A stretch of 33,577 nucleotides of DNA from Candidatus Methanoperedens sp. GTDB lineage: Archaea > Halobacteriota > Methanosarcinia > Methanosarcinales > Methanoperedenaceae. Below the pieces are notes generated by a model that saw nothing but the letters and a program-made list of their open reading frames with translations, was not told where the DNA came from and did no database searches. Numbering within the stretch: the stretch's first letter is position 1; each line of letters opens with the position of its first letter. Below, in pieces: positions 4,931 to 32,719 of the stretch. The stretch spans positions 1 through 33,577 of the forward strand of contig JAPZAP010000060.1 in assembly GCA_027460585.1 (NCBI GenBank). The letters run 5' to 3'. Both the position numbers and the translations under genes were made by a program.

Positions 4931-5623
4931 TTATGAAACTCCGGAAATGTTGATCATAACACCGCTTTTCGCTTCGACCTTGAAACCTATCATTGCCCCA
5001 ACCTGGATTTCGGGACGTGAATATTTATTAATCATCATAGTCCTTAACATTTCAGTTCCCATCTGGCGCATTTTCAGTGTCATCAGTATCTCAGCCGCAT
5101 CTTTAAATTCGTTCACTACTTTTTGGGGCATTTCGGTGCTGTCCATTGTTATAATAATGGTTTTTTGCATGCCGGTTAGTTTTTTGAAAAAAGAAATAAG
5201 CTCAAGGCTCTTTTCGGCATCTGTGCCATATCTTATGAGGGCGGAAAGAGTATCAATGATAATTACGTTCTTTTCAAACAGGACTTCAGCACTCATCAGG
5301 CGCTTGATAAAATCTATCCTGGGCTTTGATTCTTTCAACAATGGGAAAACAGGAATATACAGTAATTCTCCTTTTAGCAGCCTGATACCGATAGGATAAT
5401 CCAGGGAATTCATCTGGCGGATGAAATTCTTGGTGGTCAGCTGGGTAGATACGTAAGTAACCGTTATTTTGTTATCCAGAAGCCCGTATGCGAATCTCTG
5501 GCAAAGGGCGCTTTTTCCGCTCCCGCTTGGACCATCGATCATAATAAGTGAGCCTTTGGGAAAACCACCGCCAAGCATCTGGTTCAATTCATCCCTGTCT
5601 AGAATAAAAGTATATCCTGCCAT
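4931..5623 (-). CDS. arlH: archaellum motor regulator ArlH (FlaH), RecA-like ATP-binding protein
   Basis: A 230-residue KaiC/RecA-like protein. The Walker A is GPSGSGKS at residues 31-38 and a Walker B-like strand is VIIIDTLSAL. ArlH binds ATP and forms a ring next to ArlI; in characterised archaea it is needed for assembly and has been linked to switching. The ATG begins two bases after the arlG stop and has only a weak AGGA upstream, which points to coupling with arlG. Length and order in the operon are typical. Confidence 0.94.
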   Translation of the reverse strand: MAGYTFILDRDELNQMLGGGFPKGSLIMIDGPSGSGKSALCQRFAYGLLDNKITVTYVSTQLTTKNFIRQMNSLDYPIGIRLLKGELLYIPVFPLLKESKPRIDFIKRLMSAEVLFEKNVIIIDTLSALIRYGTDAEKSLELISFFKKLTGMQKTIIITMDSTEMPQKVVNEFKDAAEILMTLKMRQMGTEMLRTMMINKYSRPEIQVGAMIGFKVEAKSGVMINISGVS

Positions 5624-5625
5624 AG

Positions 5626-6075
5626 TTATGTTGTCCTGAATGGAAATGTATCTTCAATTCCATTGCTTGTGATAACCCTGAGATTATGATTGCCCGCTTG
5701 AAGTGATACGGTGGCATTTATCATTAGAACGTCTCCTGTGAGCCATGTCTGGCTGCCATCTATTATAGTTTTATTAAGATCATTATCGTGAATGATGGTA
5801 CCGTCTATTATTACATTTATATATTTAGTATCAAGCTCTTGTACCCCTGTGTTTTTTACATAAAATGTATAAATTACACTGGAATTAGGAATGATTTCTG
5901 GATCGTTGATCACTGTAATGTCCGTTCTTAATTGCTCGGTCAGGGTCTTACTGCCAATGATCACAGCAGATGAGAGGGACTGGACGTTCATAAATAATGC
6001 CCCTACTACACTTAACGCGATTATGAGAGATGCGATGAAGAAAACCATCTGGGTTGCGGATGCACCTGCGCCCAT
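5626..6075 (-). CDS. arlG: archaellum stator component ArlG (FlaG)
   Basis: A 149-residue protein with one N-terminal membrane helix (about residues 8-32) followed by an extracellular beta-sandwich related to archaellin. The TDITVINDP sequence just after the linker resembles ArlG of methanogens. ArlF and ArlG anchor the motor to the S-layer and act as stator. A GGAGG ribosome binding site overlaps the arlF stop, with the ATG nine bases later. I separate it from ArlF by order and by the INDP motif. Confidence 0.83.
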   Translation of the reverse strand: MGAGASATQMVFFIASLIIALSVVGALFMNVQSLSSAVIIGSKTLTEQLRTDITVINDPEIIPNSSVIYTFYVKNTGVQELDTKYINVIIDGTIIHDNDLNKTIIDGSQTWLTGDVLMINATVSLQAGNHNLRVITSNGIEDTFPFRTT

Positions 6076-6084
6076 TCTTGCCTC

Positions 6085-6480
6085 CTATGGTACTGAATAA
6101 TCAGCCGCACCGTTTGCGGTGATAATTTTAACTCTTCCACCCGCATCAATGATATCCACATTAATGGATGTCTTTGGCGGCCATACTCCCGCGGGATTTA
6201 CATTATAGGAGGAACCGGATTTGAATTCCCCGTCAATAATTACGTTGATATTTCTTGAATCAAGAGTTGTAGACCCATTGTTAAAGATGGTAAGGGTATT
6301 TCCATCCCGGTTCGATATTACTATTTTAGTATTCAATTTTTCTTTCCATAATTCATTTGCATTTTTTTCGGCCTTTTGAACCTGTTTGTTTGACATATCA
6401 GCCAGTGGATAAAACATTGATGCCATATATAATATGGATGCGGTAAAAATAACCACAACGGCAGAGGTTGAAAATCCCAT
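6085..6480 (-). CDS. arlF: archaellum stator component ArlF (FlaF)
   Basis: A 131-residue protein starting MGFSTSAVVVIFTAS, as ArlF proteins of other Euryarchaeota do. It has one N-terminal membrane helix, a charged coiled region (residues 30-50) and an archaellin-like beta domain with the KIVISNRDG and NVIIDG strands. ArlF binds S-layer protein outside the membrane and holds the stator in place. GGAGG lies seven bases before the ATG, next to the arlB3 stop. Confidence 0.83.
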   Translation of the reverse strand: MGFSTSAVVVIFTASILYMASMFYPLADMSNKQVQKAEKNANELWKEKLNTKIVISNRDGNTLTIFNNGSTTLDSRNINVIIDGEFKSGSSYNVNPAGVWPPKTSINVDIIDAGGRVKIITANGAADYSVP

Positions 6481-6495
6481 TTGATGCCTCCGCTG

Positions 6496-7173
6496 TTATG
6501 GATATAGTGGAACGTATTTGTTTACTGCGAACGAGTTGGGTGTTGTTATTTCGAGATTTACTGCCTGCCCAAGTTCCTGGTTCAAAGTTAGCGAGAAACT
6601 TTTTCTTGGAGCTAATATTATACCTTTGAGTGGATCAGTGTTTGGATTAGCAGCACCAGTATCTGTTATAGCAAAGGCACTTATTGTGATTTCTATTAAA
6701 TCTCCACTGTTAAGTACCGGTGTATCGATACTAAATGAAGAATCCACATCTCGCACTGCTGCAGCAGAATAATTTGTCTCACCAGCCGCCACTGGTATAA
6801 CCGTACTATACTTGAGATCATAGCGTTTGTTAGAATCCATAACCGTGATAATAACTTGCCTCAAGTCTATCGATGTAGTGCCTACATCAGGTTTGATCCT
6901 TATTGTTAAATTTTGTATATTATCAACGAGTTTAGTGGAATCGGCTGGATCAGTCCTATCTCCAAGAACCTGCTCCACAACGATATTCGAGGATATCTGC
7001 TGCGTCGCCTCTTTGCTGGTCTTTGTTGCTTTTTGCTGGAGCGACCCTGTTGTATATATCAAGACAGTGGCAGCTACTGCAGCGACAAGTACCATCGCGA
7101 TGAAGATGATCAAAGTGCCGACTCCTATATCACCTCTTTCATTGTCCACCAGGAATTTTTGGTTTGCTTTCAT
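6496..7173 (-). CDS. arlB3: archaellin ArlB, third copy (FlaB)
   Basis: A 225-residue prearchaellin and the longest of the three. Its class III signal peptide has the canonical site ERG|DIGVGTLIIF, with cleavage expected after Gly14 by the preflagellin peptidase. The hydrophobic core [16 protein letters not shown] is the filament-core helix. The C-terminal beta domain is longer than in the neighbours and is exposed on the filament. The start has GGAG seven bases upstream. It lies 37 bases after arlB2, behind a predicted stem-loop, so its level may be lower than that of the upstream archaellins. Confidence 0.93.
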   Translation of the reverse strand: MKANQKFLVDNERGDIGVGTLIIFIAMVLVAAVAATVLIYTTGSLQQKATKTSKEATQQISSNIVVEQVLGDRTDPADSTKLVDNIQNLTIRIKPDVGTTSIDLRQVIITVMDSNKRYDLKYSTVIPVAAGETNYSAAAVRDVDSSFSIDTPVLNSGDLIEITISAFAITDTGAANPNTDPLKGIILAPRKSFSLTLNQELGQAVNLEITTPNSFAVNKYVPLYP

Positions 7174-7195
7174 ATGTTACTCCATATTAAAAAGG

Positions 7196-7218
7196 AAAAA
7201 ATCCCCATCTTCAGGGGA
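7196..7218 (-). terminator. predicted intra-operon stem-loop with U-run between arlB2 and arlB3
   Basis: On the minus strand TCCCC-TGAAGAT-GGGGA (7218 to 7202) forms a five-pair stem, followed directly by six Ts (7201-7196). It overlaps the end of arlB2, whose stop codon is in the loop. It looks like an attenuating terminator or processing site that would set the ratio of the first two archaellins to the downstream genes. Confidence 0.4.
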
Positions 7219-7792
7219 ATAGCTGGACGAAGTCACTCTTAAAGGTTGCAGGAGCTACTACATTCTGGATAACCATTGTGCCTGTTTCAGGAATAATCTC
7301 AATTGTAGCTTTTCCCCTGGTGGCCAATGAATTAGTTGGAGTAATTCTAATCACTCCAATTTCTCCTGGCGACAATACTTGATTATCCACCCCAGTAGTA
7401 TCATTAATTCTAAAATTGGTTGGATCCGGCGAAACAGTTTTAGTGTAATTCAACGTATCCGTTTTAGTGCTATCAATATATTTAATAATAACTTTGGAAA
7501 AATCAATATCTGAGCCACCTGGAGCGGTTTGTACTGTTACGGTAAAGTTATCAATGTTAGCGCCAATAGTCAGAGTATTACCTACAATCGATACTACCTT
7601 CAAATTGGAAGCTACTTCTGCAGTTGCTTGCTTCCCTGTTATCTGGGCTTTTTGCTGCAATACACCTGATGTCTGGATCAACACTGCTGCCGCAACCGCT
7701 GCGACAAGTACCATAGCGATGAATATTATCAGCGTGCCAATTCCGACATCACCTGTGTTATTTTTCAAAATGTTATTTTTTGACTTAATCAT
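7211..7792 (-). CDS. arlB2: archaellin ArlB, second copy (FlaB)
   Basis: A 193-residue prearchaellin. Signal peptide cleavage is expected after Gly14 in [14 protein letters not shown], followed by the conserved core helix [21 protein letters not shown]. The beta domain ends in FVQLFP, as in arlB1 (IQLFP). The frame can also open at 7820-7822, overlapping the arlB1 stop as ATGA. I prefer the ATG at 7790-7792, because AAGGTGAT lies about five bases before it and the signal peptide then has the same length (14) as in the other two copies. Confidence 0.93.
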   Translation of the reverse strand: MIKSKNNILKNNTGDVGIGTLIIFIAMVLVAAVAAAVLIQTSGVLQQKAQITGKQATAEVASNLKVVSIVGNTLTIGANIDNFTVTVQTAPGGSDIDFSKVIIKYIDSTKTDTLNYTKTVSPDPTNFRINDTTGVDNQVLSPGEIGVIRITPTNSLATRGKATIEIIPETGTMVIQNVVAPATFKSDFVQLFP

Positions 7793-8330
7793 AGTATCAC
7801 CTTCTAAGGATATTATTTTCATGGGAATAACTGAATCTGGCTCTGCCCTCCGAATGTTGAAGGAGCTATTAGATCCTTTGTTATCATAGTACCTGTTTCA
7901 GGTATAAACTGAATAGTTGCAGTATCTCTTGGATTCATATATTGACCAGCGCCTAGATTAAATGTAAAATTTCCAAGTTCTCCAGGTTCCAGAACTTGAT
8001 TAGCGGTTACTACCCGTTCTTCGCTATAGGTAATAGATTCAAATGACGAATTACTGGCATTAATAAATTTATATTTCATCATAGTTGTATCTATAGGATT
8101 TCCACCTGCTGATACTTCTGCCAATACGTTCAATGTATCAATATAAGCTCCCTTAACGTTACCGACAACCGATATAATTTTCAAGTTGGAAGATACTTCC
8201 GCTGTCGCTTCTTTACCTGTCTGCTGAGCTTTCTGCTGCAATATGCCTGATGTCTGGATCAACACTGCTGCTGCCACCGCTGCAACAAGTACCATAGCGA
8301 TGAAAATGATCAGCGTGCCAATACCAACAT
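7664..8330. repeat. near-identical archaellin N-terminal segments
   Basis: About 90 bases encoding the core helix in arlB2 (7664-7755) and arlB1 (8244-8330) differ at only a handful of mostly third-codon positions, and the same segment in arlB3 (about 7055-7130) is clearly related. These direct repeats are potential sites for recombination or gene conversion among archaellin genes. Confidence 0.6.
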
Positions 8331-8373
8331 CGGCGTCCTCATTTCTTAATATTTTTGTTCCTTTAGCTTTCAT
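7819..8373 (-). CDS. arlB1: archaellin ArlB, first copy (FlaB)
   Basis: A 184-residue prearchaellin, first in the operon and so probably the major filament subunit. The core helix is identical to that of arlB2 over [20 protein letters not shown]. The cleavage site is unusual: NEDA|DVGIG has Ala at -1 and two acidic residues before it, where family members usually have Gly and a basic residue. The start at 8371-8373 is supported by GGAGGC at 8377-8382; the longer frame to 8421 has no such site. Confidence 0.93.
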
Positions 8374-8410
8374 AACGCCTCCATTATTGTTTTTTATTTT
8401 TTGAAACTCA

Positions 8411-8432
8411 GGTGGCGTCATTACGCCTAACC
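8411..8432 (-). promoter_or_regulatory. hairpin in the arlB1 mRNA leader
   Basis: GGCGT-CATT-ACGCC (8414-8427) is a perfect five-pair stem with a four-base loop. It is extended by GGT (8411-8413) and ACC (8430-8432) across a TA bulge. It lies between the predicted TATA box and the ribosome binding site, so it would be in the leader of the archaellin mRNA. Protection of an abundant mRNA is a possible role; no direct evidence. Confidence 0.4.
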
Positions 8433-8462
8433 TTGCTTCATATGATTATTAGAATGATACGT

Positions 8463-8471
8463 GGATATAAA
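8463..8471 (-). promoter_or_regulatory. predicted TATA box of the archaellum operon
   Basis: The minus strand reads TTTATATCC, about 95 bases upstream of the arlB1 ATG. A start 25 bases downstream would give a leader of roughly 65 bases containing the hairpin at 8411-8432. A GTGTGA box (8488-8493 on the plus strand) lies just upstream of it. Confidence 0.5.
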
Positions 8472-8526
8472 CAACGTTGTGAAAAAAGTGTGAAGATTGT
8501 TGGCAAAAAAAGTACGGACAAATAAT

Positions 8527-9156
8527 TCAGGCAACTAAAACCTTATAATTCTTGAAATAGTCAATATTATTTTTTGTTTTATTGATTTTTCCTTTTAAAT
8601 TATCCAGCATGAGTTTTGTTTCTATCCCACTACCCCGATTTCTATCTGAATAAAGTTGCTTCATTAATATATACTGCTTCCTGTCAGATATATTCTGTTT
8701 GAGAAGCAGGAATAAGTTGTACATCGATTTCTCTTTATCCATGTATTTGTTAACGCTTTCGAGACATTGATTAATAAGGTGTGGCAATTCCAGGGCATCT
8801 TTGACGGCCATCAGGAGACCATCAAGAGTGACTGGTTTCATGAGGTAGTCAGATATTAATGAAATACGCATGTAATCTTCAATAACAGGGGCTTTAGAAC
8901 TGATTACTATGACTGGTATATCCCAGTTGTTTTTGATATTCCCGATTAATTCCCAGCCATCCATATCCGGAATTTCAGTATCGAGCAGAACAAGGTCGGG
9001 AAGATTTCGCTCCATTGCCTGGAGGCATCCTTTTCCTGTGTTTGCGACACTTATTATGTATAACTCATCACCCATCAACAGCATTTCTGCGAAAAGATCT
9101 GCAATGTCCGGTTCTCTATTTACTATGAGGATGGAACTTAATTTCTTCGGGTTCAT
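8527..9156 (-). CDS. atypical receiver-domain protein upstream of the archaellins
   Basis: A 209-residue protein. Residues 7-125 are a receiver domain with phospho-acceptor D59 in LLDTEIPDMDG and the lysine in LMKP. The acidic pair that binds magnesium is replaced: N13 and R14 stand where Asp-Asp is expected, with E15 P16 D17 following as in normal receivers. Residues 126-209 are predicted helical and charged and show no DNA-binding or enzyme motif I recognise. It could be a motility regulator working by protein contact, or unrelated to motility. There is no ribosome binding site, and a TATA box lies about 29 bases before the ATG, so the mRNA may be leaderless. Confidence 0.85.
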   Translation of the reverse strand: MNPKKLSSILIVNREPDIADLFAEMLLMGDELYIISVANTGKGCLQAMERNLPDLVLLDTEIPDMDGWELIGNIKNNWDIPVIVISSKAPVIEDYMRISLISDYLMKPVTLDGLLMAVKDALELPHLINQCLESVNKYMDKEKSMYNLFLLLKQNISDRKQYILMKQLYSDRNRGSGIETKLMLDNLKGKINKTKNNIDYFKNYKVLVA

Positions 9157-9180
9157 ATATCGTTAAGTTCGATTTCACAA

Positions 9181-9189
9181 AAATATAAG
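9181..9189 (-). promoter_or_regulatory. predicted TATA box for the receiver protein, leaderless spacing
   Basis: The minus strand reads CTTATATTT, centred about 29 bases upstream of the ATG at 9154-9156. Transcription would begin at or near the start codon, in line with the lack of a ribosome binding site. Confidence 0.45.
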
Positions 9190-9238
9190 GGTTAGTATGA
9201 TTGATATTCACAATAAATCCCAAATTTCACATTACTGT

Positions 9239-9263
9239 TCACACCGATTTTTCGTGTGATATT
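9239..9263. promoter_or_regulatory. inverted repeat TCACAC-N9-GTGTGA
   Basis: TCACAC at 9239-9244 is the exact inverse of GTGTGA at 9254-9259. The right half extends to GTGTGATATT, identical to 1603-1612 next to the cheY promoter. It lies upstream of the receiver-protein promoter and is a candidate regulator binding site. Confidence 0.4.
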
Positions 9264-9285
9264 ATGCACATTTTATCTCACTCAA

Positions 9286-9300
9286 CCTTATATAAATAGG
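9286..9300. promoter_or_regulatory. TATA-like element in the divergent region
   Basis: CCTTATATAAATAGG reads as a TATA box on either strand. It is about 130 bases from the receiver-protein start and 170 from rmlA, too far for a short leader, so it may be a second promoter for either direction. Confidence 0.25.
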
Positions 9301-9321
9301 AACATATTCCATTCATAGAAC

Positions 9322-9380
9322 CCCCATTGGCCGATAATCTTTGCAATTTTCCACCTTTTGCCTTTATCGGCCATAAGGGG
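9322..9380. repeat. long inverted repeat upstream of rmlA
   Basis: TGGCCGATAA (9328-9337) is the exact inverse of TTATCGGCCA (9364-9373). Both arms are extended by a CCCC/GGGG match (9322-9325 and 9377-9380) with a small mismatch between; the spacer is 26 bases. It lies 30-85 bases upstream of the rmlA TATA box and looks like a binding site for a dimeric regulator, or a stem in a transcript crossing this region. Confidence 0.5.
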
Positions 9381-9408
9381 CAATCATTTCTTATCCTGAA
9401 AAAAGAGG

Positions 9409-9416
9409 TTATATAT
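9409..9416 (+). promoter_or_regulatory. predicted TATA box for the rhamnose/exporter operon
   Basis: TTATATAT lies 53-60 bases before the rmlA ATG. A start about 25 bases downstream leaves a leader of some 30 bases containing the palindrome at 9447-9458 and the GAGGG ribosome binding site at 9460-9464. Confidence 0.5.
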
Positions 9417-9446
9417 CTATAGTTACCTTTAAGCCAGCTATATCAC

Positions 9447-9458
9447 AATCCTAGGATT
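9447..9458. promoter_or_regulatory. perfect 12-base palindrome before rmlA
   Basis: AATCCTAGGATT reads the same on both strands and lies two bases before the ribosome binding site, just after the predicted transcription start. Position and symmetry fit a repressor operator. Confidence 0.35.
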
Positions 9459-9468
9459 TGAGGGCAAA

Positions 9469-10533
9469 ATGAAAGCATTAATTTTAAGCGGCGGCAAGGG
9501 AACAAGGCTTCGGCCTTTAACATTTACAACAGCAAAACAGCTCATTCCGGTAGCTAATAAACCGATTCTGGGTTATGTCCTGGATCAGACTTCCCAGGCT
9601 GGAATTGAAGATACGGCAATAATAATCGCCCCTGAAACAGGTGGATTTGTTAAAGACTATGTAAAGGATGGCTCATCGTGGGGAATAAGGGTAGAATATA
9701 TAACACAGGAGCCCCTGGGACTGGCTCATGCTGTAAAAACTGCAAAACACTTCTTAAATAATGACTCTTTTGTAATGTGCCTCGGGGATAACCTGCTTGG
9801 TGAAGGAATAAATAAGCTTGTAGAGAAATTTAACCGGGAAAAGCTGGATGCTCTTATTTTGCTTAAGAAAGTTGAAAATCCAGGCGCTTTTGGTGTTGCA
9901 GTCCTGGATGAAAACGGAAATGTAGTTAAGCTTATTGAGAAACCAAAGCAGCCGCCCAGCAATTTAGCTCTGGTTGGAGTATATATCTTTTCTCCGAGGA
10001 TCCACGAAGCTATTGAGAGGATCAAACCATCCTGGCGAAATGAGCTTGAGATTACAGATGCGATCCAGGAATTGATCGACATGGGCTGCAATGTAAAAAG
10101 CGAGATATTAAATGCATGGTGGCTGGATACCGGAAAAAAGGATGATATTTTAACTGCGAACAGTATTGTCCTTGATGAATACATTAAATATGAAATATGT
10201 GGCAGCGTAGATAATCAAAGCAAAATTACAGGAAGAGTAAAAATTGAAAAAGGTTCAGTTATCGTAAACAGCATTATCCGGGGTCCCGTTGCAATCGGCG
10301 AAAACTCTTACATCGAGAACTCTTTCATAGGTCCGCATACCAGCATCGGTAACAATACTAAAATTTTTGAATCTTCAATTGAACATTGTGTGATCCTCGA
10401 TAACACCCAGGTCAGGGAAATAGAACGGCTGGAAGACAGCTTACTCGGAAAGGATGTGAAAGTATCAAAGAACAATAAGGGTCGGGGAGCATTGAGATTG
10501 ATGATCGGGGATTATTCGGAGATAGAAGTATGA
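9469..10533 (+). CDS. rmlA: glucose-1-phosphate thymidylyltransferase RmlA, long archaeal form
   Basis: A 354-residue nucleotidyltransferase that makes dTDP-glucose from glucose-1-phosphate and dTTP, the first step to dTDP-L-rhamnose. The nucleotide-binding signature LSGGKGTRLRPLT starts at residue 6, and QLIPVANKP and EKPKQPPSN follow as expected. Residues from about 240 form a left-handed beta helix of hexapeptide repeats (for example AIGENSYIENSFIG and TSIGNNTKIF), as in the long archaeal RmlA rather than the short bacterial enzyme. GAGGG at 9460-9464 supports the start. The end overlaps rmlC by four bases (ATGA). Confidence 0.93.
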   Translation: MKALILSGGKGTRLRPLTFTTAKQLIPVANKPILGYVLDQTSQAGIEDTAIIIAPETGGFVKDYVKDGSSWGIRVEYITQEPLGLAHAVKTAKHFLNNDSFVMCLGDNLLGEGINKLVEKFNREKLDALILLKKVENPGAFGVAVLDENGNVVKLIEKPKQPPSNLALVGVYIFSPRIHEAIERIKPSWRNELEITDAIQELIDMGCNVKSEILNAWWLDTGKKDDILTANSIVLDEYIKYEICGSVDNQSKITGRVKIEKGSVIVNSIIRGPVAIGENSYIENSFIGPHTSIGNNTKIFESSIEHCVILDNTQVREIERLEDSLLGKDVKVSKNNKGRGALRLMIGDYSEIEV

Positions 10534-11006
10534 ATTTTAAATCCGGTGAAATTAATGATATAATAGTAAGAGATCTAATAAAAAATGAAGATAAAAGAGG
10601 CTGGTTAATAGAACTTTTCAGGAAAGATCAAATTGATGAAGCTATTTTTCCTCAGATGTCTTACATATCTCTTACATATCCAGGAATTGCCAGAGGCCCT
10701 CATGAACACAGGGAGCAAACAGATTATTTTTGCTTTCTAGGCCCGTCGACTTTTAGATTATTGCTATGGGATACTCGAAAAGGTTCTTCAACATATGGAA
10801 ATATGATGGTCATGGAGATTGGCGAAAGTGACCCGAAAATCATAATAGTACCACCGGGCGTAATTCATGCTTACAAGAACATTGGTGAAAAACCCGGTCT
10901 TGTAATAAATCTCCCAAATAAACTGTATGCAGGATGGGACAAGTTAGAGAAAGTTGATGAAATACGATATGAAGGAGACTCGAACAGTCCTTTTAAGGTG
11001 GATTAG
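10530..11006 (+). CDS. rmlC: dTDP-4-dehydrorhamnose 3,5-epimerase RmlC
   Basis: A 158-residue cupin-fold protein that epimerises dTDP-4-keto-6-deoxyglucose to the L-rhamno form, the third step of the pathway. The substrate/catalytic histidine region RGPHEHREQTDYF and the strand IIVPPGVIHAYKN match the family. It is somewhat shorter than the usual 180 residues. The overlap with rmlA (ATGA) and the two-base gap to rmlB place it in one operon. A specialised sugar epimerase with a different product cannot be fully excluded. Confidence 0.88.
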   Translation: MNFKSGEINDIIVRDLIKNEDKRGWLIELFRKDQIDEAIFPQMSYISLTYPGIARGPHEHREQTDYFCFLGPSTFRLLLWDTRKGSSTYGNMMVMEIGESDPKIIIVPPGVIHAYKNIGEKPGLVINLPNKLYAGWDKLEKVDEIRYEGDSNSPFKVD

Positions 11007-11008
11007 AT

Positions 11009-12001
11009 ATGAGAATCCTTGTAACTGGCGGATGCGGATTCATTGGTTCCAATTTTATTCATCATTTGCTTAAAAACACTGACAACGAGATAATAAATCT
11101 GGACATATTGACATATTCAGGAAATCCCGCCAACCTCAAGGACATTAAGGCAAATAAGAAATATCGATTTGTCAGGGGCAGGATTGAAGATAAAAAGCTT
11201 GTTACAGAGCTTATTAAAGATGTAGACCATATTGTTAATTTCGCTGCCGAGAGCCATGTTGACAGGTCAATACTTGATCCGGGCCCTTTTTTTAGTACCA
11301 ATATCGAGGGAACAAGGACGCTTCTTGAAGCTTGCAGGAATAGCGATATTAAAAAATTTGTGCATATTTCCACGGATGAAGTTTATGGCGAGCTTGGGGA
11401 AACAGGTAAATTCACTGAAAATTTGCCTTTGCTGCCAAATTCCCCATATTCAGCTTCCAAGGCTTGTGCAGATCTGGTAATTAGAGCTTATGAAAATACA
11501 TACGGATTGCATGTGGCCACGGCAAGACCTTCTAACAATTACGGATATTTCCAGTATCCTGAGAAGTTCATTCCGCTAATGATAACGAATCTCCTGGAAG
11601 GTAAACCAGTGCCTGTATATGGGGAGGGAAATAACATAAGGGACTGGATATTTGTTGAAGACACTTGCGCCGGCATCGCTGCTATTCTTGAACGGGGTAA
11701 AGCTGGAGAGGTTTACAATGTGGGAGGGGAAAGTGAACGAAGGAACATCGATATAGTGAAGACAATACTGGAATTGCTGGAAAAGGACGAGAGTAACATA
11801 ACATTCGTGAAGGACAGGCCGGGGCATGATTATCGATATGCTTTGGATAATACCAGGATCAGAAAAGAGCTTGGCTGGGCACCAAAAATTGATCTTGAAG
11901 CTGGTCTAATGAAAACGGTGGAATGGTATAAAAACAACTCCTCGTGGTGGAAGCCGCTGAAAGAGAAACTCGCGAGGGAGAATAAAGGATTCTGGTCATG
12001 A
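11009..12001 (+). CDS. rmlB: dTDP-glucose 4,6-dehydratase RmlB
   Basis: An extended short-chain dehydrogenase of 330 residues that converts dTDP-glucose to dTDP-4-keto-6-deoxyglucose. The NAD-binding motif VTGGCGFIGSNF is at the N-terminus, STDEVYGE carries the Asp-Glu pair typical of this dehydratase, and YSASK is the catalytic Tyr-x3-Lys. The C-terminus carries the DNTRIRKELGW segment usual in the family. It is the second enzyme of the pathway, although third in gene order. Confidence 0.94.
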   Translation: MRILVTGGCGFIGSNFIHHLLKNTDNEIINLDILTYSGNPANLKDIKANKKYRFVRGRIEDKKLVTELIKDVDHIVNFAAESHVDRSILDPGPFFSTNIEGTRTLLEACRNSDIKKFVHISTDEVYGELGETGKFTENLPLLPNSPYSASKACADLVIRAYENTYGLHVATARPSNNYGYFQYPEKFIPLMITNLLEGKPVPVYGEGNNIRDWIFVEDTCAGIAAILERGKAGEVYNVGGESERRNIDIVKTILELLEKDESNITFVKDRPGHDYRYALDNTRIRKELGWAPKIDLEAGLMKTVEWYKNNSSWWKPLKEKLARENKGFWS

Positions 12002-24719: not shown

Positions 24720-25007
24720 TCATGAAATATCCATGTGGATCTTTTCCCATATTTGAATGATATCATTCAAATTTGGCTCCATGTTTTTGGAAATATAATA
24801 TCTCTTGCCGGATTTATCTTCTTTTGTCGTGATAATTCTATTCTTAACAAGGATATCAAGATGGCGCCTGGTAGTTTCATAATCCAGATTTAAATCATCT
24901 GCTAATTGATGTGCATAATATGGTTTATCGGAAATGTTCTTCAGGATATATCCACGGGTATAACCGCCCAGTGTTCCGGCGAACATTTGCCACAATAAAC
25001 TCTTCAT
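24720..25007 (-). CDS. winged-helix (ArsR-like) transcriptional regulator
   Basis: A 95-residue single-domain DNA-binding protein. The helix-turn-helix spans about residues 30-55 (YAHQLADDLNLDYETTRRHLDIL, recognition helix near DYETTRRHLDILVK) and the wing is KEDKSGKRYYIS. No cysteine pair suggests metal sensing. A TTG lies one codon before the ATG at 25005-25007; I use the ATG, with GGGGTTGAG upstream. Target genes are not known; the small-protein operon behind it and gdhA in front are neighbours only. Confidence 0.85.
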   Translation of the reverse strand: MKSLLWQMFAGTLGGYTRGYILKNISDKPYYAHQLADDLNLDYETTRRHLDILVKNRIITTKEDKSGKRYYISKNMEPNLNDIIQIWEKIHMDIS

Positions 25008-25132
25008 CAATACTCAACCCCTGACAATGAAAAACTGCTCAAATAAATTCCCACCTAAAACATGCCTGGAAAAATATAAAACTCCAGGTATGTTTTAGTA
25101 TTTTCAGGAGGTAAATGGGCATTAATTCAACT

Positions 25133-25288
25133 TCATTTTCTTAATCCCAGCATATTTTCATCTACGGCAAAAGCACCACTACCGCAGTCCACGCATGACA
25201 TCATAGCTATTCCCATGATGAAATCCATGCTTTTTATCTTTATAGAATGTTTACAATTAGGGCATTTATATTGTTTGTTGGAATTCAT
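25133..25288 (-). CDS. small zinc-ribbon protein
   Basis: A 51-residue protein with two CxxC pairs, CPNC (residues 9-12) and CVDC (32-35), the pattern of a zinc ribbon. The rest has no recognisable domain. Small zinc ribbons bind nucleic acid or other proteins, or serve as rubredoxin-like metal folds. The start overlaps the stop of the upstream 58-residue gene (ATGA), and GGTGG lies four to eight bases before it. It is the last gene of a three-gene operon. Confidence 0.72.
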   Translation of the reverse strand: MNSNKQYKCPNCKHSIKIKSMDFIMGIAMMSCVDCGSGAFAVDENMLGLRK

Positions 25289-25461
25289 ATAAGCCACCAC
25301 ACATAATCTTTGTTATTACCGGCGCTTTCGGGTTCTTTTTCATCTTCCCTGCTCGGTTTTAGATAATTAATTACATTCCTGCTTTTTTTATCCTGTTGAT
25401 CAAGGTTATAGTGATCCGGCTTTCCTTCAAATTCTCGTCTATCCTTCTGTTTCTTGACCAT
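25285..25461 (-). CDS. 58-residue highly charged hypothetical protein
   Basis: I do not recognise this protein. It is rich in Lys, Asp, Glu and Asn (for example KKQKDRREFEGKPDHYN), probably disordered, and ends in the aromatic sequence DYVWWLI. Support comes from gene arrangement: its ATG lies inside the 3' end of the SH3-like gene (23-base overlap) and its stop forms an ATGA with the zinc-ribbon gene. The ribosome binding site (AAGTGAG) is weak, in line with coupled translation. Confidence 0.5.
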   Translation of the reverse strand: MVKKQKDRREFEGKPDHYNLDQQDKKSRNVINYLKPSREDEKEPESAGNNKDYVWWLI

Positions 25462-25798
25462 AACTTCTCACTTCGCATTGTTTTTCAGAAGTACCTGCGG
25501 CAGTACACGGCACTAATTTAAACGAAACTGTTTCAGGATCTGCCGAGGTACCCGGAACAGCAGGTTCATTATTGTAAATCAAGTCGCCATCTCTTCTATT
25601 TCCTGCAAATGTGCCGTGATTCTTTTCGGTGACCTTCGATATTATTCTTTTTTCAGGAACTTTGTATGCCCACCCGCTAAAACTGTCGACATACAATATG
25701 TTCTCATTGTTATCCTCTTCGACAAATTGAACCTGTCCTGTATGTTTGTCATTTGATCCGACTTTAAATTCTACAACATCTCCTCTTGAGTATCTCAT
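25439..25798 (-). CDS. hypothetical protein with a predicted SH3/Tudor-like N-terminal barrel
   Basis: A 119-residue protein. Residues 1-60 (YSRGDVVEFKVGSNDKHTG, then GQVQFVEEDNNENILYV and WAYKVPEKRIIS) have the GD-x-V-x-(16)-G-x-V rhythm of small beta barrels such as SH3, KOW or Tudor-like domains. The remainder is low-complexity with two cysteines near the end. The longer frame to 25888 is rejected because GGAGGG at 25802-25807 lies directly before the ATG at 25796-25798. It is first in an operon with two smaller proteins. Function unknown. Confidence 0.72.
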   Translation of the reverse strand: MRYSRGDVVEFKVGSNDKHTGQVQFVEEDNNENILYVDSFSGWAYKVPEKRIISKVTEKNHGTFAGNRRDGDLIYNNEPAVPGTSADPETVSFKLVPCTAAGTSEKQCEVRSYGQETEG

Positions 25799-26052
25799 AT
25801 TCCCTCCAGATATTTTTTTTTCCGATTTATACCCAAAATGAAAGTGAAGGAAAGGATACAATCCTTTCCCATAAGGTCCCACTCTCAAGGTCTTATATTC
25901 TCAGGTACATTTTTTGTACGATTCTACAATGCTTTCATACCGATATATTGCCTGTTATTACTGACATTCACAATTTATTAAATTTGCTAAAGTTAGATTG
26001 AAAGAGATTGCGCGAAATCTACAATTCCAACAGGATACAGAAAATAAAACCT
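25799..26052. other. promoter region of the small-protein operon and flank
   Basis: No gene is visible. On the minus strand AATATAAG near 25891-25898 is a plausible TATA box, giving a leader of about 65 bases for the SH3-like gene. A second TATA-like element, TATAAATC at 25825-25832, would start transcription inside the ribosome binding site and is less likely. Confidence 0.35.
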
Positions 26053-27419: not shown

Positions 27420-28148
27420 TCAATCAGGGAATCCGGCGGATGCTAATATTTTATTTTTAGGATTAAACGAGTGTAAATTTGCAGTCACCAGTTCAAATTC
27501 AGAAGAGATAAACCGTGATGTAATTTGACCAAGCCTGACATAGAAAGTCAGACTTGCCGAGTCCTGGAGTTTAAGGCAAAATTCAGGAATCCACTGGATC
27601 AGGTGACGTTCCAGAAAATCCTTCTGCGCCAGGAGATATCCTTTGTATTCTTCCAACTTATCTTCTCCCAGGGCTTCTTCTTCCCTGAAGGTCAGGAAAT
27701 GAAGAAATTCAAGCTCTGCACAGATATGATCGGGAAATTCCCGTTTACCTTCTTCCTGGCTCATACGCATGCCGAAAAAATTGTAGAATTCACTTACCTC
27801 AAGCATGACCACGCTCCCTGGCTTTCTGCAATAATGACTCTCGTTTGGCGGGCATAAAGGAACAGGTGTGCCAGCGTCGAATATTCGGGTAAATTCGATC
27901 TCGAATTGAGCCATAGTCATTCCTTTCATATCATCTTTATGATTCCCTGCCATGCCGGAGTATTCCAGCATAAGGGCATTGAGCCCGGAAATTGATGATA
28001 TGTTATACATTAGTTCATCCAGGAATTCCCCATTTTGGAAAGTTTTGAAGATTTCCGGATCTGGATAACGGAAGCCTGTTGATAGTAATTTATACAGGTT
28101 GCTTCGAAAAATTGTATCTGTATGGGTATTCATCGATATCTGGGACAT
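27420..28148 (-). CDS. TorD/NarJ-type molybdoenzyme chaperone
   Basis: A helical protein of about 242 residues in the TorD/DmsD/NarJ chaperone family. These cytoplasmic proteins bind the catalytic subunit and hold it until the molybdenum cofactor is inserted. Family features include FEIEFTRIFDAGTPVPLCPPNESHY and a PDHICAELEFLHFL block, matching the conserved P-D-H / E-x-x-F-L region. The frame can begin at 28178, overlapping the gamma subunit gene by 25 bases; I use the ATG at 28146-28148, five bases past that gene's stop, but the choice is not certain. Its client is almost surely NarG. Confidence 0.88.
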   Translation of the reverse strand: MSQISMNTHTDTIFRSNLYKLLSTGFRYPDPEIFKTFQNGEFLDELMYNISSISGLNALMLEYSGMAGNHKDDMKGMTMAQFEIEFTRIFDAGTPVPLCPPNESHYCRKPGSVVMLEVSEFYNFFGMRMSQEEGKREFPDHICAELEFLHFLTFREEEALGEDKLEEYKGYLLAQKDFLERHLIQWIPEFCLKLQDSASLTFYVRLGQITSRFISSEFELVTANLHSFNPKNKILASAGFPD

Positions 28149-28153
28149 GTTAA

Positions 28154-28813
28154 TCACTGGATAAAAAGATTGTGCCACTCTGAGACTATTTTATGTCCGC
28201 CCCTTTCTGAATATGCTCCACCTTTCCAATTAGCAAAGGCTACCCTGTAATTTCTTCCCCGGATAAAGGAAACCTGGTTCTCGGAAGCCTGGGCCATCGG
28301 CCGGGTTATGATCACGGTCCAGGTTCCATTCTCCCATTTCTGGTAATGCCTGATATTCCGGGAAGCCTCATCAGGACTGGTTTGAGGAGTTCCCATTCCC
28401 CCGGCAACGATATTCTCTGGTCCTGGCAGATCTGCTCTCCAGAAAATGATGTTCACAGGTTTGTCCATGGCGCCCATCCAGAGAGGGCTATCTTCAGTAA
28501 AGAGAGGTATTTCCATCGCAAAAGCGTCTGCAAAGACAGGATAATCAGCTACAGAATTATTTTCTGTAACGGCGTTCCATTGAAAGAAGAAAAAAATATC
28601 AGTGTCATTATGCACCGCTTTCATTTTTGCATGCCTGATCTCATCCTGTAAGAATGTGGTTCTTGCACCGGCTTCATTAAGTCTCCTGCTAAAATCAATT
28701 GTGACTTGCTGGGAATCTATCCAGGCCTGACCCGCCGGATCAAGAGATATATTTCCTTGAACATATACTGCTGTAATTACTTTTTGTGCATCACCTGGTT
28801 GTTGAACAGTCAA
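28154..28813 (-). CDS. heme b-binding gamma subunit of a type II DMSO reductase family enzyme (ethylbenzene dehydrogenase type)
   Basis: A 219-residue beta-rich protein of the ethylbenzene dehydrogenase heme-binding family, the gamma subunit of enzymes such as ethylbenzene, dimethylsulfide and chlorate-type oxidoreductases. The WMGAMDKPVNIIFWRAD block probably holds the Met and Lys heme ligands seen in relatives. It would accept or donate electrons via heme b beside NarH. Relatives are normally exported, but no signal peptide is visible here. The gene starts at a TTG supported by GAGGT eight bases upstream; no ATG is in frame nearby. Confidence 0.88.
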   Translation of the reverse strand: MTVQQPGDAQKVITAVYVQGNISLDPAGQAWIDSQQVTIDFSRRLNEAGARTTFLQDEIRHAKMKAVHNDTDIFFFFQWNAVTENNSVADYPVFADAFAMEIPLFTEDSPLWMGAMDKPVNIIFWRADLPGPENIVAGGMGTPQTSPDEASRNIRHYQKWENGTWTVIITRPMAQASENQVSFIRGRNYRVAFANWKGGAYSERGGHKIVSEWHNLFIQ

Positions 28814-28868
28814 GATAATAACCTCATGGATTTTTAAATGAAAGAAATGAAATATATGTTTTCATATT

Positions 28869-29903
28869 TTATACCCTTATACGATCAGCTTCTGAATGCG
28901 GGTTCAATATATCGATCAATTCTGAACTTTCACCTTTTGCCGCTTTTTCCCTTTCAGTCCGCAGGACGAGAAATATCTCCCTGATCCGTTCTGCGCGCTG
29001 CTCAAGGCTCTGGTCTGCGGTGTCACCGAACAATTTCGCCAGCACCTCGACAGGAATGCGTGGATCTCCCGTAAGTTTCCCTGCCTGATTATAAGCAGGA
29101 GGAGAAAGAGGCGGGATGTAAAATACATTAGGTTCGGTTTTAAATTCAGGATGCAGCCGCAAAGCAACTTTCCATTTGTCCACGAGTTTATACACGCTGC
29201 CGGTTGTATCGTCTGCAAAGCCTACATGATGAATCCGCCCGACACACTGGGTTGCGCATAAGTTGCCTTTGTGCTGCTCGATCCTGGGATAACAGAATAT
29301 ACACTTCTGGGATATTTTTTCTTCCGGGTTATAGTATATTTTTTTATACGGGCATCCTTTAATACAGTAGCGATAACCCCTGCATCGTTTCTGGTCAACA
29401 AGGACTATCCCATCCTCTTTTCGTTTATAGACCGCCTGGCGCGGACAGGAATCCACGCAGGGTGGATCGCTGCAATGGTTGCAGATGCGCGGCAGGTAAA
29501 AATAATAAGAATTGGGGAAGGTTCCATCACCTACATCTTCATCCCAGTTGCTTGCATATGCATTTCCCGAAGGTTCGGGTTTTGGAACCAATACCGACGC
29601 TGAGGCATCTCCTCCATCGGTTTTCAATACCTCGCCATAGTTATATTCCCACGGCGCGCCGTAGCCTTCGTTAATATTCGCAAGCGGTATGCTGTTTTTG
29701 TCCTTTGTGTTAAACCATCCTCCCTGGGTTTCCCAGTCCTTCGGGTAACCTTTTCCCGGCCTGGTTTCAACATTGTTCCAGTACATATGCATCTGTCCGC
29801 TGTTCCTGTCAGTCCACATGGTCTTACACGCCATGGTACAGGTATGGCAGCCAAGACACTTGTTAAGGTCAGCCACCATCCGAATCTGTCTTTGTATCGG
29901 CAT
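28869..29903 (-). CDS. narH: nitrate reductase-type beta subunit NarH (four iron-sulfur clusters)
   Basis: A 344-residue electron-transfer subunit. The four cysteine groups are CLGCHTCTMAC (residues 16-26), CNHCSDPPCVDSC, CRGYRYCIKGC and CIFCYPRIEQHKGNLCATQC. The third has Tyr where E. coli NarH has Trp (CRGWRMC), as in other type II family members, and one cluster may be [3Fe-4S]. It passes electrons between the gamma subunit heme and NarG. The ATG overlaps the narG stop by one base (TAATG) with GGGAGG upstream. It is shorter than bacterial NarH (about 510). Confidence 0.93.
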   Translation of the reverse strand: MPIQRQIRMVADLNKCLGCHTCTMACKTMWTDRNSGQMHMYWNNVETRPGKGYPKDWETQGGWFNTKDKNSIPLANINEGYGAPWEYNYGEVLKTDGGDASASVLVPKPEPSGNAYASNWDEDVGDGTFPNSYYFYLPRICNHCSDPPCVDSCPRQAVYKRKEDGIVLVDQKRCRGYRYCIKGCPYKKIYYNPEEKISQKCIFCYPRIEQHKGNLCATQCVGRIHHVGFADDTTGSVYKLVDKWKVALRLHPEFKTEPNVFYIPPLSPPAYNQAGKLTGDPRIPVEVLAKLFGDTADQSLEQRAERIREIFLVLRTEREKAAKGESSELIDILNPHSEADRIRV

Positions 29904-32719
29904 TAAACCTCCCTGGATTTTCGGATCTCAACGCGGGTATCCTTCTGGTTCCCGGTTGGCCCCCAGTAGTTGGGTTTAAAATTAAGCTGTCCATAACCTC
30001 CGACGAGCTGGGTCGGCTTGATGCGGATTGTCATGGGGCTCTGGAAGCCGCCATTCTTAAACGTATAACGCTCCCAGCCCTGGTACATCAATGCCATGCC
30101 TTTTGGCATCCGCGGGGAAATGCACATGTGTGCGGTTATTGTCCCGCAGTCGTTGTATATCTCAACGGGATCGTTGTCGGCAAGCTCCCGGACTGAAGCA
30201 TCTTCAGGATTTAAGTATACAACGGGATACCCCCTCTGTAATCTTAACTGGTATTTTGCATCCCGCCACAGGGAATGAATGCTCCAGCGTCCATGCGGGG
30301 TGAGAAATCGAAGCGGGTATTTTTTTCCGTCCACAGGCGGCTTGTATACAGGCAGTTCCTCATGGAACTCTTTCAGGAACCAGTCATGGTCGATATAGAA
30401 CTGCTGCCGTCCTGTAAGTGTATTAAGGGGCCGTTTCAATTCGTACATCCTCTGGAAAGTATAGTAGGCTTCCCCTTTTTTAATATCGCTAGTCCAACCT
30501 TTATCAGTGGCCACAAAACGCCTGGGCTGCTCGTTGAGCATATCCATTGTCATACCTTTTGTTTCCAGTGAATTATCCAGGATGAACTGGCCTGCGCTCT
30601 TGTCCGGGAAAAGTGCCCCGCCTGCGGTGAAATCATCCGCAAGTGTTGAAAAATCACGATTGACACTTGTTCTATCAGGCAGTGAATCTGTAAAAGAGAA
30701 TTTTGTGTCTGAAAGCGCGCGGGCAAGATGCAAAAATATCTGCCAGTCTGTTTTACTATCTAGCTGCGGTGGAATAATTGGAGTGAATGGATTGATGTAG
30801 GAATGAAGATCGGTTGTGCTTAAATCCCACTTCTCGAACATGCTTGAAGAAGGCAAAATCACATCGGCAGATAAACCTGTGGTGTTCATGCGAAAATCAA
30901 TATCCACTATTAGGTCAAGCTTTGGCCAGAGATTTTTCAGGATAGATTCTGCGCCCTTGGCCTGGTTAAGAAAGTTGGCCCCCCATACGATGAGGACACG
31001 GGGAGTATTGCCGCTGTCAAGAGTTCCTTTCGGATATAATGGCATCCAGCCTTTCTCCACACTTTCACGAATATATTCGCTGATTGGGCGCGGCGAGAGA
31101 TCATGGTTTTGCGGATCTTCTTCGATGTTTGAGTGCACATATGTCCAGAGCGTGGTGGGCATAAATCGTTGCTTTGCATTTCCAAGAGGAAACGCAAGTT
31201 TGAAAAATCCCTCCTCGCACCAGAATTTTTCCTGCCCCACATAATGATCAAATCCCCCGCCAGGTATCCCGACATTGCCTGTCAGGGCAGCAAGCAGGAT
31301 CATGCTCCTGTTTATGAGATCATTGTGATAATAGTGGTTTACGCCAGCTCCCGCGATGATCCTGGCAGGTTTTGTGCCGGCAAACTCGCGGGCAATTTGA
31401 GTGATGAGGTCGGCGTCAACTCCTGTAATGCCAGAAACGCTTGCAGGTTCGTACTCATTTAGTTTCTGTTTGAGGAGTGAAAAAACCGTTGTCACTTCCA
31501 ATTTACCTGAAAGCGTATCTACTATGAAAGTTCCTTCAAGGGCAGGATTGATCGCGCCAATATCCAGGGTCCTGTCACGGCAATCAACCGTACCTGGAGC
31601 CAGTTCAGGTTTTTTCGTGTTCTCGTTCCAGAAATAGAAATTACCCATCTTCCCTTCTGGTTCGACATCGTTCTCCCTTAGGAACTTGCCGTTATCAATA
31701 CGAACGAGCATTGGCAAGTCGGTGAATCGTTTCAGATAATCCTCATTATATAATTTCTGATTAACGATCACGTTTGCCATGCCAAGCGCCAGTGCCCCGT
31801 CGGTTCCGGGTTTTACCGGGATGAATATATCCGCGTGTATCGAGACGGGATTATATTCAGTAGAGATAGAAACTATCTTTGTCCCATGTATTCGTGCTGC
31901 CGTCACAAAATGAGCGTCAGGAATCCGCGTCTCAAGCAGGTTTGAACCCCATATTATGATATATTTTGAATTGAACCAGTCTGCCGCTTCACAGGAATCG
32001 GTTTGCACACCCCACGTCATTGGCTCACCGGGCGGCAGGTCGGAAACCCAGTCATAGAACGTGCATACCACGCCGCCGATGAGGTTTGCCAGGCGCGCGC
32101 CTGCGGCATAGGAAACCAGGAACTTTGCGGGATTGGCAGAATAGAACGTCACTGTATCAGGGCCGTGATCGGATATGGCAGAAACGATCCTTTCCGCAAT
32201 GTAATCCAGGGCCTCTTCCCATGAGGCTTTTCGCCATTTTCCTTCACCCCGCTCGCCGGTCCGTATAAGTGGATATTTTACGCGCTGCGGGCCATAAACA
32301 TATTCTTTATAATTTGCGCCTTTCTGGCATCCTCTAGGATTATAAGTGGGAAGCGTTGAGTTGATATCCGGATAATCAGCATACTGCTCCTCCTTGAATG
32401 CAATATTGTTCCTGACATATACCTTCCATGTACAGGAACCTGTGCAATTGATCGAATGTGTGGTCCTTCCAAAAGAATCGTATTTCCACTGCTCACGGTG
32501 CAGCGTTTCCCATCCCCTGTATGGATATTCACCAACGGGTTCATGTACTTTTTCCAGAAGGTCAAGTGACAGCGCATGCTTTGCTGCCTGTGCGCCGCGT
32601 TCAAGGAGCGCGCGTGCCCGGTCATGCCTTGCAGCCAGGTTTTCTGCTGATGTTGCTGATGATGACTTTTCCAGTGTTTCGGGCTGGATCGGGTTCTCAT
32701 TTCGCGGTTCTTTTGCCAT
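29903..32719 (-). CDS. narG: nitrate reductase-type molybdenum catalytic subunit NarG
   Basis: A 938-residue DMSO reductase family type II protein. The N-terminal cluster ligands are His88, Cys92, Cys96 and Cys131 (THSINCTGSC ... GCQKG), with the same spacings as E. coli NarG. Asp241 in TWGVQTDSCEAADW lines up with the molybdenum ligand Asp222 of NarG. It reduces nitrate to nitrite with electrons from NarH; chlorate or another oxyanion is possible for this clade. No twin-arginine signal is present before residue 60, and no upstream in-frame start would supply one. It is shorter than bacterial NarG (about 1,240), typical of archaeal forms. No clear ribosome binding site. Confidence 0.91.
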   Translation of the reverse strand: MAKEPRNENPIQPETLEKSSSATSAENLAARHDRARALLERGAQAAKHALSLDLLEKVHEPVGEYPYRGWETLHREQWKYDSFGRTTHSINCTGSCTWKVYVRNNIAFKEEQYADYPDINSTLPTYNPRGCQKGANYKEYVYGPQRVKYPLIRTGERGEGKWRKASWEEALDYIAERIVSAISDHGPDTVTFYSANPAKFLVSYAAGARLANLIGGVVCTFYDWVSDLPPGEPMTWGVQTDSCEAADWFNSKYIIIWGSNLLETRIPDAHFVTAARIHGTKIVSISTEYNPVSIHADIFIPVKPGTDGALALGMANVIVNQKLYNEDYLKRFTDLPMLVRIDNGKFLRENDVEPEGKMGNFYFWNENTKKPELAPGTVDCRDRTLDIGAINPALEGTFIVDTLSGKLEVTTVFSLLKQKLNEYEPASVSGITGVDADLITQIAREFAGTKPARIIAGAGVNHYYHNDLINRSMILLAALTGNVGIPGGGFDHYVGQEKFWCEEGFFKLAFPLGNAKQRFMPTTLWTYVHSNIEEDPQNHDLSPRPISEYIRESVEKGWMPLYPKGTLDSGNTPRVLIVWGANFLNQAKGAESILKNLWPKLDLIVDIDFRMNTTGLSADVILPSSSMFEKWDLSTTDLHSYINPFTPIIPPQLDSKTDWQIFLHLARALSDTKFSFTDSLPDRTSVNRDFSTLADDFTAGGALFPDKSAGQFILDNSLETKGMTMDMLNEQPRRFVATDKGWTSDIKKGEAYYTFQRMYELKRPLNTLTGRQQFYIDHDWFLKEFHEELPVYKPPVDGKKYPLRFLTPHGRWSIHSLWRDAKYQLRLQRGYPVVYLNPEDASVRELADNDPVEIYNDCGTITAHMCISPRMPKGMALMYQGWERYTFKNGGFQSPMTIRIKPTQLVGGYGQLNFKPNYWGPTGNQKDTRVEIRKSREV

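Follow-up and report, generated by a model that had tools for sequence, protein, structure and literature searches.

The operon of three small overlapping genes found in the window, which is the whole stretch of 33,577 nucleotides of Candidatus Methanoperedens DNA analysed here (contig C60 of a 2.47 Mb genome), is best described as a patchwork and not as a fixed trio, a conclusion that we draw with high confidence from comparisons of sequences. The patchwork would join two units, namely, (a) a barrel gene with an ArsR-like regulator and (b) gene 2 with a zinc-ribbon gene. With moderate confidence, the main role of gene 2 is that of a translated lead-in for the zinc-ribbon gene. In relatives of the window locus, the conserved frames and motif suggest that this lead-in may be entered by +1 ribosomal frameshifting, whose occurrence we consider about evenly balanced. 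The combined reading, in which a patchwork contains a lead-in that is entered by a +1 frameshift in relatives and from its own ATG in the window, has in our estimate slightly better than an even chance of being correct. The elements of the window locus are as follows.

25439..25798, minus strand: gene 1, Tudor/SH3-like barrel protein of 119 residues, whose family portion comprises residues 1 to ~60
25439..25618, minus strand: orphan tail of gene 1 (residues 61 to 119), predicted to be disordered, with a 23-base overlap with gene 2
25285..25461, minus strand: gene 2, charged, 58 codons, ending in DYVWWLI-stop, with its own ATG and without the frameshift-like motif
25133..25288, minus strand: gene 3, four-Cys zinc-ribbon-like protein of 51 residues (CPNC...CVDC), with an ATGA overlap with gene 2
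24720..25010, minus strand: ArsR-like winged-helix regulator, 96-codon open reading frame (ORF) matching Pfam HTH_5
25799..25995, minus strand: leader located 5′ of the barrel gene, conserved with loci L114, L115, and L116
25055..25098, no strand assigned: inverted repeat with 16-nucleotide arms in the interval between the zinc-ribbon and regulator genes, a possible operator or terminator

Analysis of the ORF coordinates confirmed the gene layout given in the earlier note, since the three minus-strand ORFs overlap by 23 bases and then by 4 bases (ATGA). The winged-helix regulator that the note had placed 3′ of the trio on the same strand was also confirmed, the ArsR-type product of positions 24720 to 25010 scoring 27.7 bits with HTH_5 (Pfam gathering score, 22 bits). 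Relatives of this regulator are located directly 3′ of the barrel gene at four loci in genome G014. The leader (positions 25799 to 25995) displayed 77% mean column identity with L114, L115, and L116. It contains possible hairpins, with two-sided changes in 2 of 34 predicted pairs and a z value of -1.7, on which grounds a structured RNA leader was set aside; Rfam gave no match within the window. The arms of the inverted repeat (positions 25055 to 25098) are 94% complementary and flank a loop containing a TATA-like stretch. The repeat is present once, in this genome alone, with no copy elsewhere in the genus, and could be the operator of the regulator or a terminator. Elsewhere in the window, positions 27420 to 32719 carry genes resembling a molybdopterin oxidoreductase (nitrate-reductase-like) cluster, the names being taken from reading of the translations; its members are a 938-residue catalytic subunit, a 344-residue iron-sulfur subunit, a further subunit, and a chaperone-like protein.

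The barrel predicted for the gene 1 product held for residues 1 to 56, which were modeled as five strands (pLDDT of ~71 to 82), and not for residues 59 to 119, for which pLDDT was mostly <50. Foldseek searches with the barrel model revealed no significant match (best E value, 0.16). Re-alignment of the predicted model with Tudor folds gave a Z score of 9.1, the closest fold being the Tudor domain of PHF1 (rmsd of 1.8 for 57 aligned residues; 18% identity). Other SH3-like folds also scored, such as R67 DHFR (Z score, 7.4), indicating that the fold is common and uninformative on function. According to the model, residues 1 to 60 would share the fold of the Tudor/SH3-like barrels of PHF1 and the MRG chromodomains, to which no sequence family match links them. 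Neither the barrel nor gene 2 of the window matched a Pfam or NCBIfam family, the other barrel members gave weak family matches only, and a profile search of PDB sequences returned no convincing relative.

Homologues of the barrel (matching residues 1 to 60) were detected in 25 of the 60 relatives' genomes searched, with as many as 8 copies in a genome, and in 4 of 392 genomes of the phylum, every one belonging to the same genus or family. The 33 barrel relatives in named genomes came from Candidatus Methanoperedens(aceae), an uncultured archaeon, or one Euryarchaeota MAG. Members of this Tudor-like family have ~57 to 60 residues, most relatives being stand-alone proteins of about 54 to 63 residues. 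Some relatives have longer, unrelated ends, and residues 61 to 119 of gene 1 had no match in the 30 other genomes of the genus. The alignments comprised 34 of 68 barrel domain hits picked for diversity (set A1) and 29 of the 33 named-genome barrel loci (set A3, from which L188, a partial copy, and the near-duplicates L196, L199, and L203 were left out). Three barrel copies lie on one strand within 6 kb at L132 (positions 5743 to 11540). At L162, L164, and L165, in three genomes, a small lysine- and glutamate-rich ORF (MSKKIMERKERDRKEKIAELEK...) is located 3′ of the barrel gene and has a short KKQKDR-like start in common with gene 2 of the window.

Assignment of gene 3 to a four-Cys zinc protein was borne out by its homologues. 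Cys residues 9, 12, 32, and 35, which form two Cx2C knuckles (C9/C12 and C32/C35), were invariant in the 32 aligned members (alignment A2, 32 of 50 domain hits picked for diversity), and the inter-knuckle stretch ADFIKGIAMVSC was strongly conserved. The window protein reached no Pfam or NCBIfam cut-off, zinc-finger matches among PDB sequences covered one knuckle only, and the single-sequence model (pLDDT, 61) contained a helix between the knuckles. Homologues were present in 23 of the 60 genomes searched, with up to 4 copies per genome, and in 3 of 392 genomes of the phylum, all from the same genus or family. The homologue counts of the barrel and of the zinc ribbon (25 and 23 of 60 genomes) exceed chance. 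The zinc-ribbon gene usually has its own ATG preceded by GGTGG and could be translated on its own, a point against the lead-in reading. A mobile or viral origin was rejected, as neither the barrel nor the zinc ribbon had IMG/VR relatives by tblastn on pattern-matched stretches only.

The earlier note had read the three overlapping genes as an operon whose coupling suggests a complex. The mapping of gene order (loci L066 to L173 plus the window) did not sustain a conserved trio, since the barrel and zinc-ribbon genes were <1 kb apart in the window alone; elsewhere they were nearest in L088, at a distance of 8.5 kb. In the 60 relatives searched, the barrel and the zinc ribbon were separate multicopy families of Candidatus Methanoperedens. 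The hypothesis of a conserved trio was rejected. Judged by the refuting condition set in the note (no conservation in relatives of the 58-residue frame or of the gene order), the coupling of this frame to the zinc ribbon was conserved, and neither its sequence nor the order of the trio was. The small genes with their tight overlaps are real, and the pairing of gene 2 with the zinc ribbon is conserved. Assembly of the three window proteins into one nucleic-acid-binding complex, as proposed in the note, would fit the overlaps and the barrel and zinc folds, and is nonetheless very improbable given the gene order in the mapped loci and the orphan nature of the overlapping barrel tail.

Genome G014 contains four barrel-then-regulator neighbors (L115 to L118) and one regulator-then-ribbon pair (L104). 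The leader, barrel, and regulator of the window are colinear with those of L115 and L116, and the window has an extra block composed of the barrel tail, gene 2, and the zinc ribbon. This block may have been gained in the window or lost in G014, the patchwork being compatible with either direction. A stop interrupts the regulator gene of L116, and the regulator of L118 is missing its N terminus. Because two of the four pairs of G014 have damaged regulators, barrel-regulator pairs seem to multiply and decay in this genome. The decay of related copies, including the broken zinc ribbons of L095 and L075 and these damaged regulators, would also accommodate a window copy that is a decaying remnant with accidental overlaps. 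We regard this explanation as improbable, since none of the four ORFs of the window is broken and the copy retains the Cys residues, VWWLI, and ATGA.

In the 60 searched genomes, the 58-residue gene 2 product gave a confident match to itself only (next best E value, 0.07). An open frame ending in xVWWLI-stop and overlapping the ATG of the zinc-ribbon gene was present at 16 of the 47 other zinc-ribbon loci. One further VWWLI-ribbon locus (G015:C10), located at a contig edge, was found by the motif described below, bringing the total to 17 relatives. The gene 2 frames of 16 relatives comprise 37 to 52 codons and have the same ATG overlap as the window. At the 16 motif loci, the Leu residue of VWWLI is encoded by CTG, CTT, TTG, CTA, or CTC and the Val residue by GTC, GTA, or GTG, and neither residue is ever replaced. 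This variation of codons for unchanged residues indicates a protein-level constraint at the end of the gene 2 frame. In the middle of gene 2, second-position changes were as frequent as third-position changes (pairs with ~70 to 75% identity) and, the closest pairs excepted, neither third-position nor synonymous changes were in excess, leaving protein-level selection unsupported in that portion. The gene 2 frame of the window has kept VWWLI and ATGA, and its own ATG lies within the orphan tail of the barrel gene.

We propose that gene 2 delivers ribosomes to the ATGA at which the zinc-ribbon gene starts and would thereby couple the translation of the two frames, the open frame and VWWLI being kept as the middle drifts. 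Gene 2 could instead encode a functional partner that contacts the zinc ribbon through VWWLI, the pair and not the trio forming a complex. In agreement with this possibility, VWWLI is conserved at the codon level, 17 relatives retain the pair, and genes coupled through -4 overlaps frequently code for complexes, according to the available text of PMC10666635. The lack of conservation of the middle of gene 2, the absence of a VWWLI-type partner at 31 of 48 zinc-ribbon loci, and the three loci wholly devoid of gene 2 make a functional partner unlikely, and we retain the lead-in as the preferred role of gene 2.

Upstream in the gene 2 frame of the relatives, we detected a conserved motif, GGGRTTTACTTTGYCCC (AAGGGRUUUACUUUGYCC). 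Searches allowing one mismatch returned 20 matches, in 19 of 31 genomes of the genus, versus 1 match for the reversed control, with no more than one match per genome except in G003, which has two. Nineteen matches were at loci of the gene 2/ribbon type and one (G003:C7) was a degenerate copy. The 0 frame is opened by an ATG at 18 of the 20 motif loci, the exceptions being G013:C82 (ACG) and G003:C7 (stop), and at these 18 loci the ATG is preceded by a stretch complementary to the end of 16S rRNA (ΔG of -5.1 to -10.7). The 0-frame peptide starts with MTxQExRRxLLC... and closes 3 to 8 codons past CTT at all 20 motif loci. From its last stop to the slip site, the +1 frame contains no ATG, GTG, or TTG at any of the 18 loci having a 0-frame ATG. 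At 16 of the 20 motif loci, the +1 frame runs without a stop between the slip site and VWWLI-UGA, the remaining two frames being closed at all 16; the probability of +1 openness in shuffled sequences ranged from 0.055 to 0.355 per locus. In G018, G020, and G021, gene 2 is absent and the zinc ribbon is encoded in the +1 frame directly 3′ of the motif, with no ATG ahead of its first Cys codon. The fused ribbons of G018 and G021 differ by 8 codons, of which 5 are synonymous (P = 0.027 for an assumed 25%), and that of G020 is broken by one extra base. The +1 frame holds gene 2 at 16, the zinc ribbon directly at 3, and a degenerate sequence at 1 of the 20 motif loci.

The surroundings of the motif were also surveyed. 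The degenerate copy of G003:C7 (L240, at approximately record position 17473) is associated with neither a VWWLI end nor a zinc ribbon, and is followed by an ORF for a MarR-like winged-helix protein, which is also found upstream of many motif loci. Uncharacterized small proteins of 99 and 93 residues are encoded beside motif loci (L066, positions 6729 to 7319; L091, positions 5430 to 5720). Beside 18 motif loci, the 99-residue protein, the 93-residue protein, and a MarR/MsvR-like winged-helix protein occurred at 12, 4, and 8 loci, respectively.

The arrangement, the frames, the start and stop positions, and the conservation of the motif are direct readings of the aligned loci. As a mechanism, translation in the relatives would initiate at the Shine-Dalgarno (SD)-preceded ATG of the 0 frame, and the ribosome would slip by +1 at the prfB-like AAGGGRUUUA-CUU-UGY-C to enter the gene 2 frame. 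The window unit would have lost this entry and would use the in-frame ATG inside the extended tail of the barrel gene. Three loci speak against the frameshift: G013:C82 carries ACG in place of the 0-frame ATG, the gene 2 frame of L100 is open in the absence of both a start and the motif, and at G003:C7 the motif is present but the system is not intact. Transcriptional slippage at the A run was rejected, since the run is just AAAG at six motif loci (G003:C64, G013, G015, G018, G020, and G021). Alternatively, the motif might be a DNA operator or an RNA hairpin acting on the zinc-ribbon gene, gene 2 having a non-AUG start or being untranslated, and no frameshift would occur. The location of the motif just 3′ of the start codon, its folding as a 4- to 6-bp hairpin at most loci, and the pairing of its R/Y ends at 17 of 20 loci are consistent with this explanation. 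The covariation of the ends was not significant (P = 0.095), three loci break the pairing, and G008 lacks the hairpin. An operator or hairpin also leaves unexplained the sole openness of the +1 frame at 16 of 16 loci and the lack of a start in the zinc ribbons of G018 and G021, and we consider it rather unlikely. Should the +1 shift be real, a gene of cellular archaea would undergo conserved recoding at a prfB-like signal, which would also account for the ease with which small genes of this start-less kind are overlooked. Should it not be real, what remains would be a patchwork of small paralogues, ordinary in kind and confined to this lineage.

The motif was absent from both strands of the window, where the best match had 4 mismatches. 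The window and L094 are the copies with an in-frame ATG, and both lack the motif, L094 having CTCTG at the site of the CTTTG of the other loci. The counts of the two-by-two table relating the motif to the in-frame ATG (19, 1, 0, and 2) gave a P value of 0.013, with kinship ignored and G003:C7 left out. The genome of the window also carries a motif-bearing version on contig C50 (L066). Since this version coexists with a window copy that has an ATG and no motif, the window operon is a derived copy whose lead-in frame acquired another entry.

The slip site contains a Cys codon, and a slow A-site codon favors +1 shifts, tRNA starvation being able to provoke "hungry" shifts (PMC5009743, in its available part). 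Together, these features led us to propose that access to a Cys-rich protein may be controlled by the supply of Cys-tRNA, slippage at UGY increasing when charged Cys-tRNA runs short. Sensing of cysteine by the frameshift site is assigned low confidence. In the fuller form of this proposal, a conserved chromosomal +1 site, CUU-UGY-C, would gate the Cys-rich zinc ribbon and sense charged Cys-tRNA or sulfur, the window trio being a copy freed from the Cys gate by an in-frame start inside the barrel operon. We view this scheme as possible and somewhat doubtful. In some species, the motif locus is near a metX, metW, metY, or YeiH gene. O-Acetylhomoserine sulfhydrylase was encoded near 4 of 18 motif loci versus 0 of 91 other loci, and MetX, MetW, and YeiH near 3, 2, and 4 of the 18, respectively. 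This neighborhood lends weak support to a sulfur link because the flanks are syntenic, amounting to few independent events, and are often cut by contig ends. A real +1 shift would provide a testable link between amino acid supply and translation in methane-oxidizing archaea.

The closest counterpart of the Methanoperedens site is the +1 signal of bacterial prfB (release factor 2), for which the accessible text of PMC3711429 gives the consensus CTT_TGA_C, preceded by a stimulator of the SD type. Both combine a CTT_TG-_C slip site soon after the start codon, the +1 direction, a purine-rich SD-like stretch upstream, an early end of the 0 frame, a +1 product, and conservation across species. They differ by the A-site codon, which is a Cys codon in Methanoperedens (CTT_TGY_C at 20 of 20 loci) and the UGA stop in prfB. 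The SD-like pairing is also weaker in Methanoperedens (-6.2, -5.6, and -4.0 kcal/mol for AAGGGG, AAGGGA, and AAGGAA, respectively, versus -10.4 kcal/mol for the E. coli sequence). Both differences count against the frameshift reading. In addition, the Methanoperedens site is archaeal, is known from sequence, and would yield a small lead-in and a zinc ribbon and not a release factor. Termination-reinitiation at ATGA overlaps is a known system (PMC6728339, text seen in part) that resembles the junction at which the gene 2 stop and the zinc-ribbon start share ATGA, the difference being that the upstream cistron, gene 2, looks like a lead-in and not a full partner gene. A +1 frameshift has been predicted as the rescue of a Borg split protein, a case from the same host genus and with the same direction, which concerns a single split gene and for which the available portion of PMC12660748 mentions no conserved slip motif. 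The accessible literature on Methanoperedens, archaeal recoding or frameshifting, and methanogen frameshifting contained no report of this locus, and the parts of the archaeal reviews at hand name just -1 cases and one virus for frameshifting. Recoding in archaeal translation would be common to the present case and to those recorded in the same partial texts, namely, the -1 frameshift demonstrated in Sulfolobus fucA1 (PMC8211752) and viral cases that include a likely +1 shift in the haloarchaeal virus HSTV-2 (PMC8211752 and PMC5009743). Unlike the viral +1 site of HSTV-2, that of Methanoperedens would be a conserved chromosomal locus.
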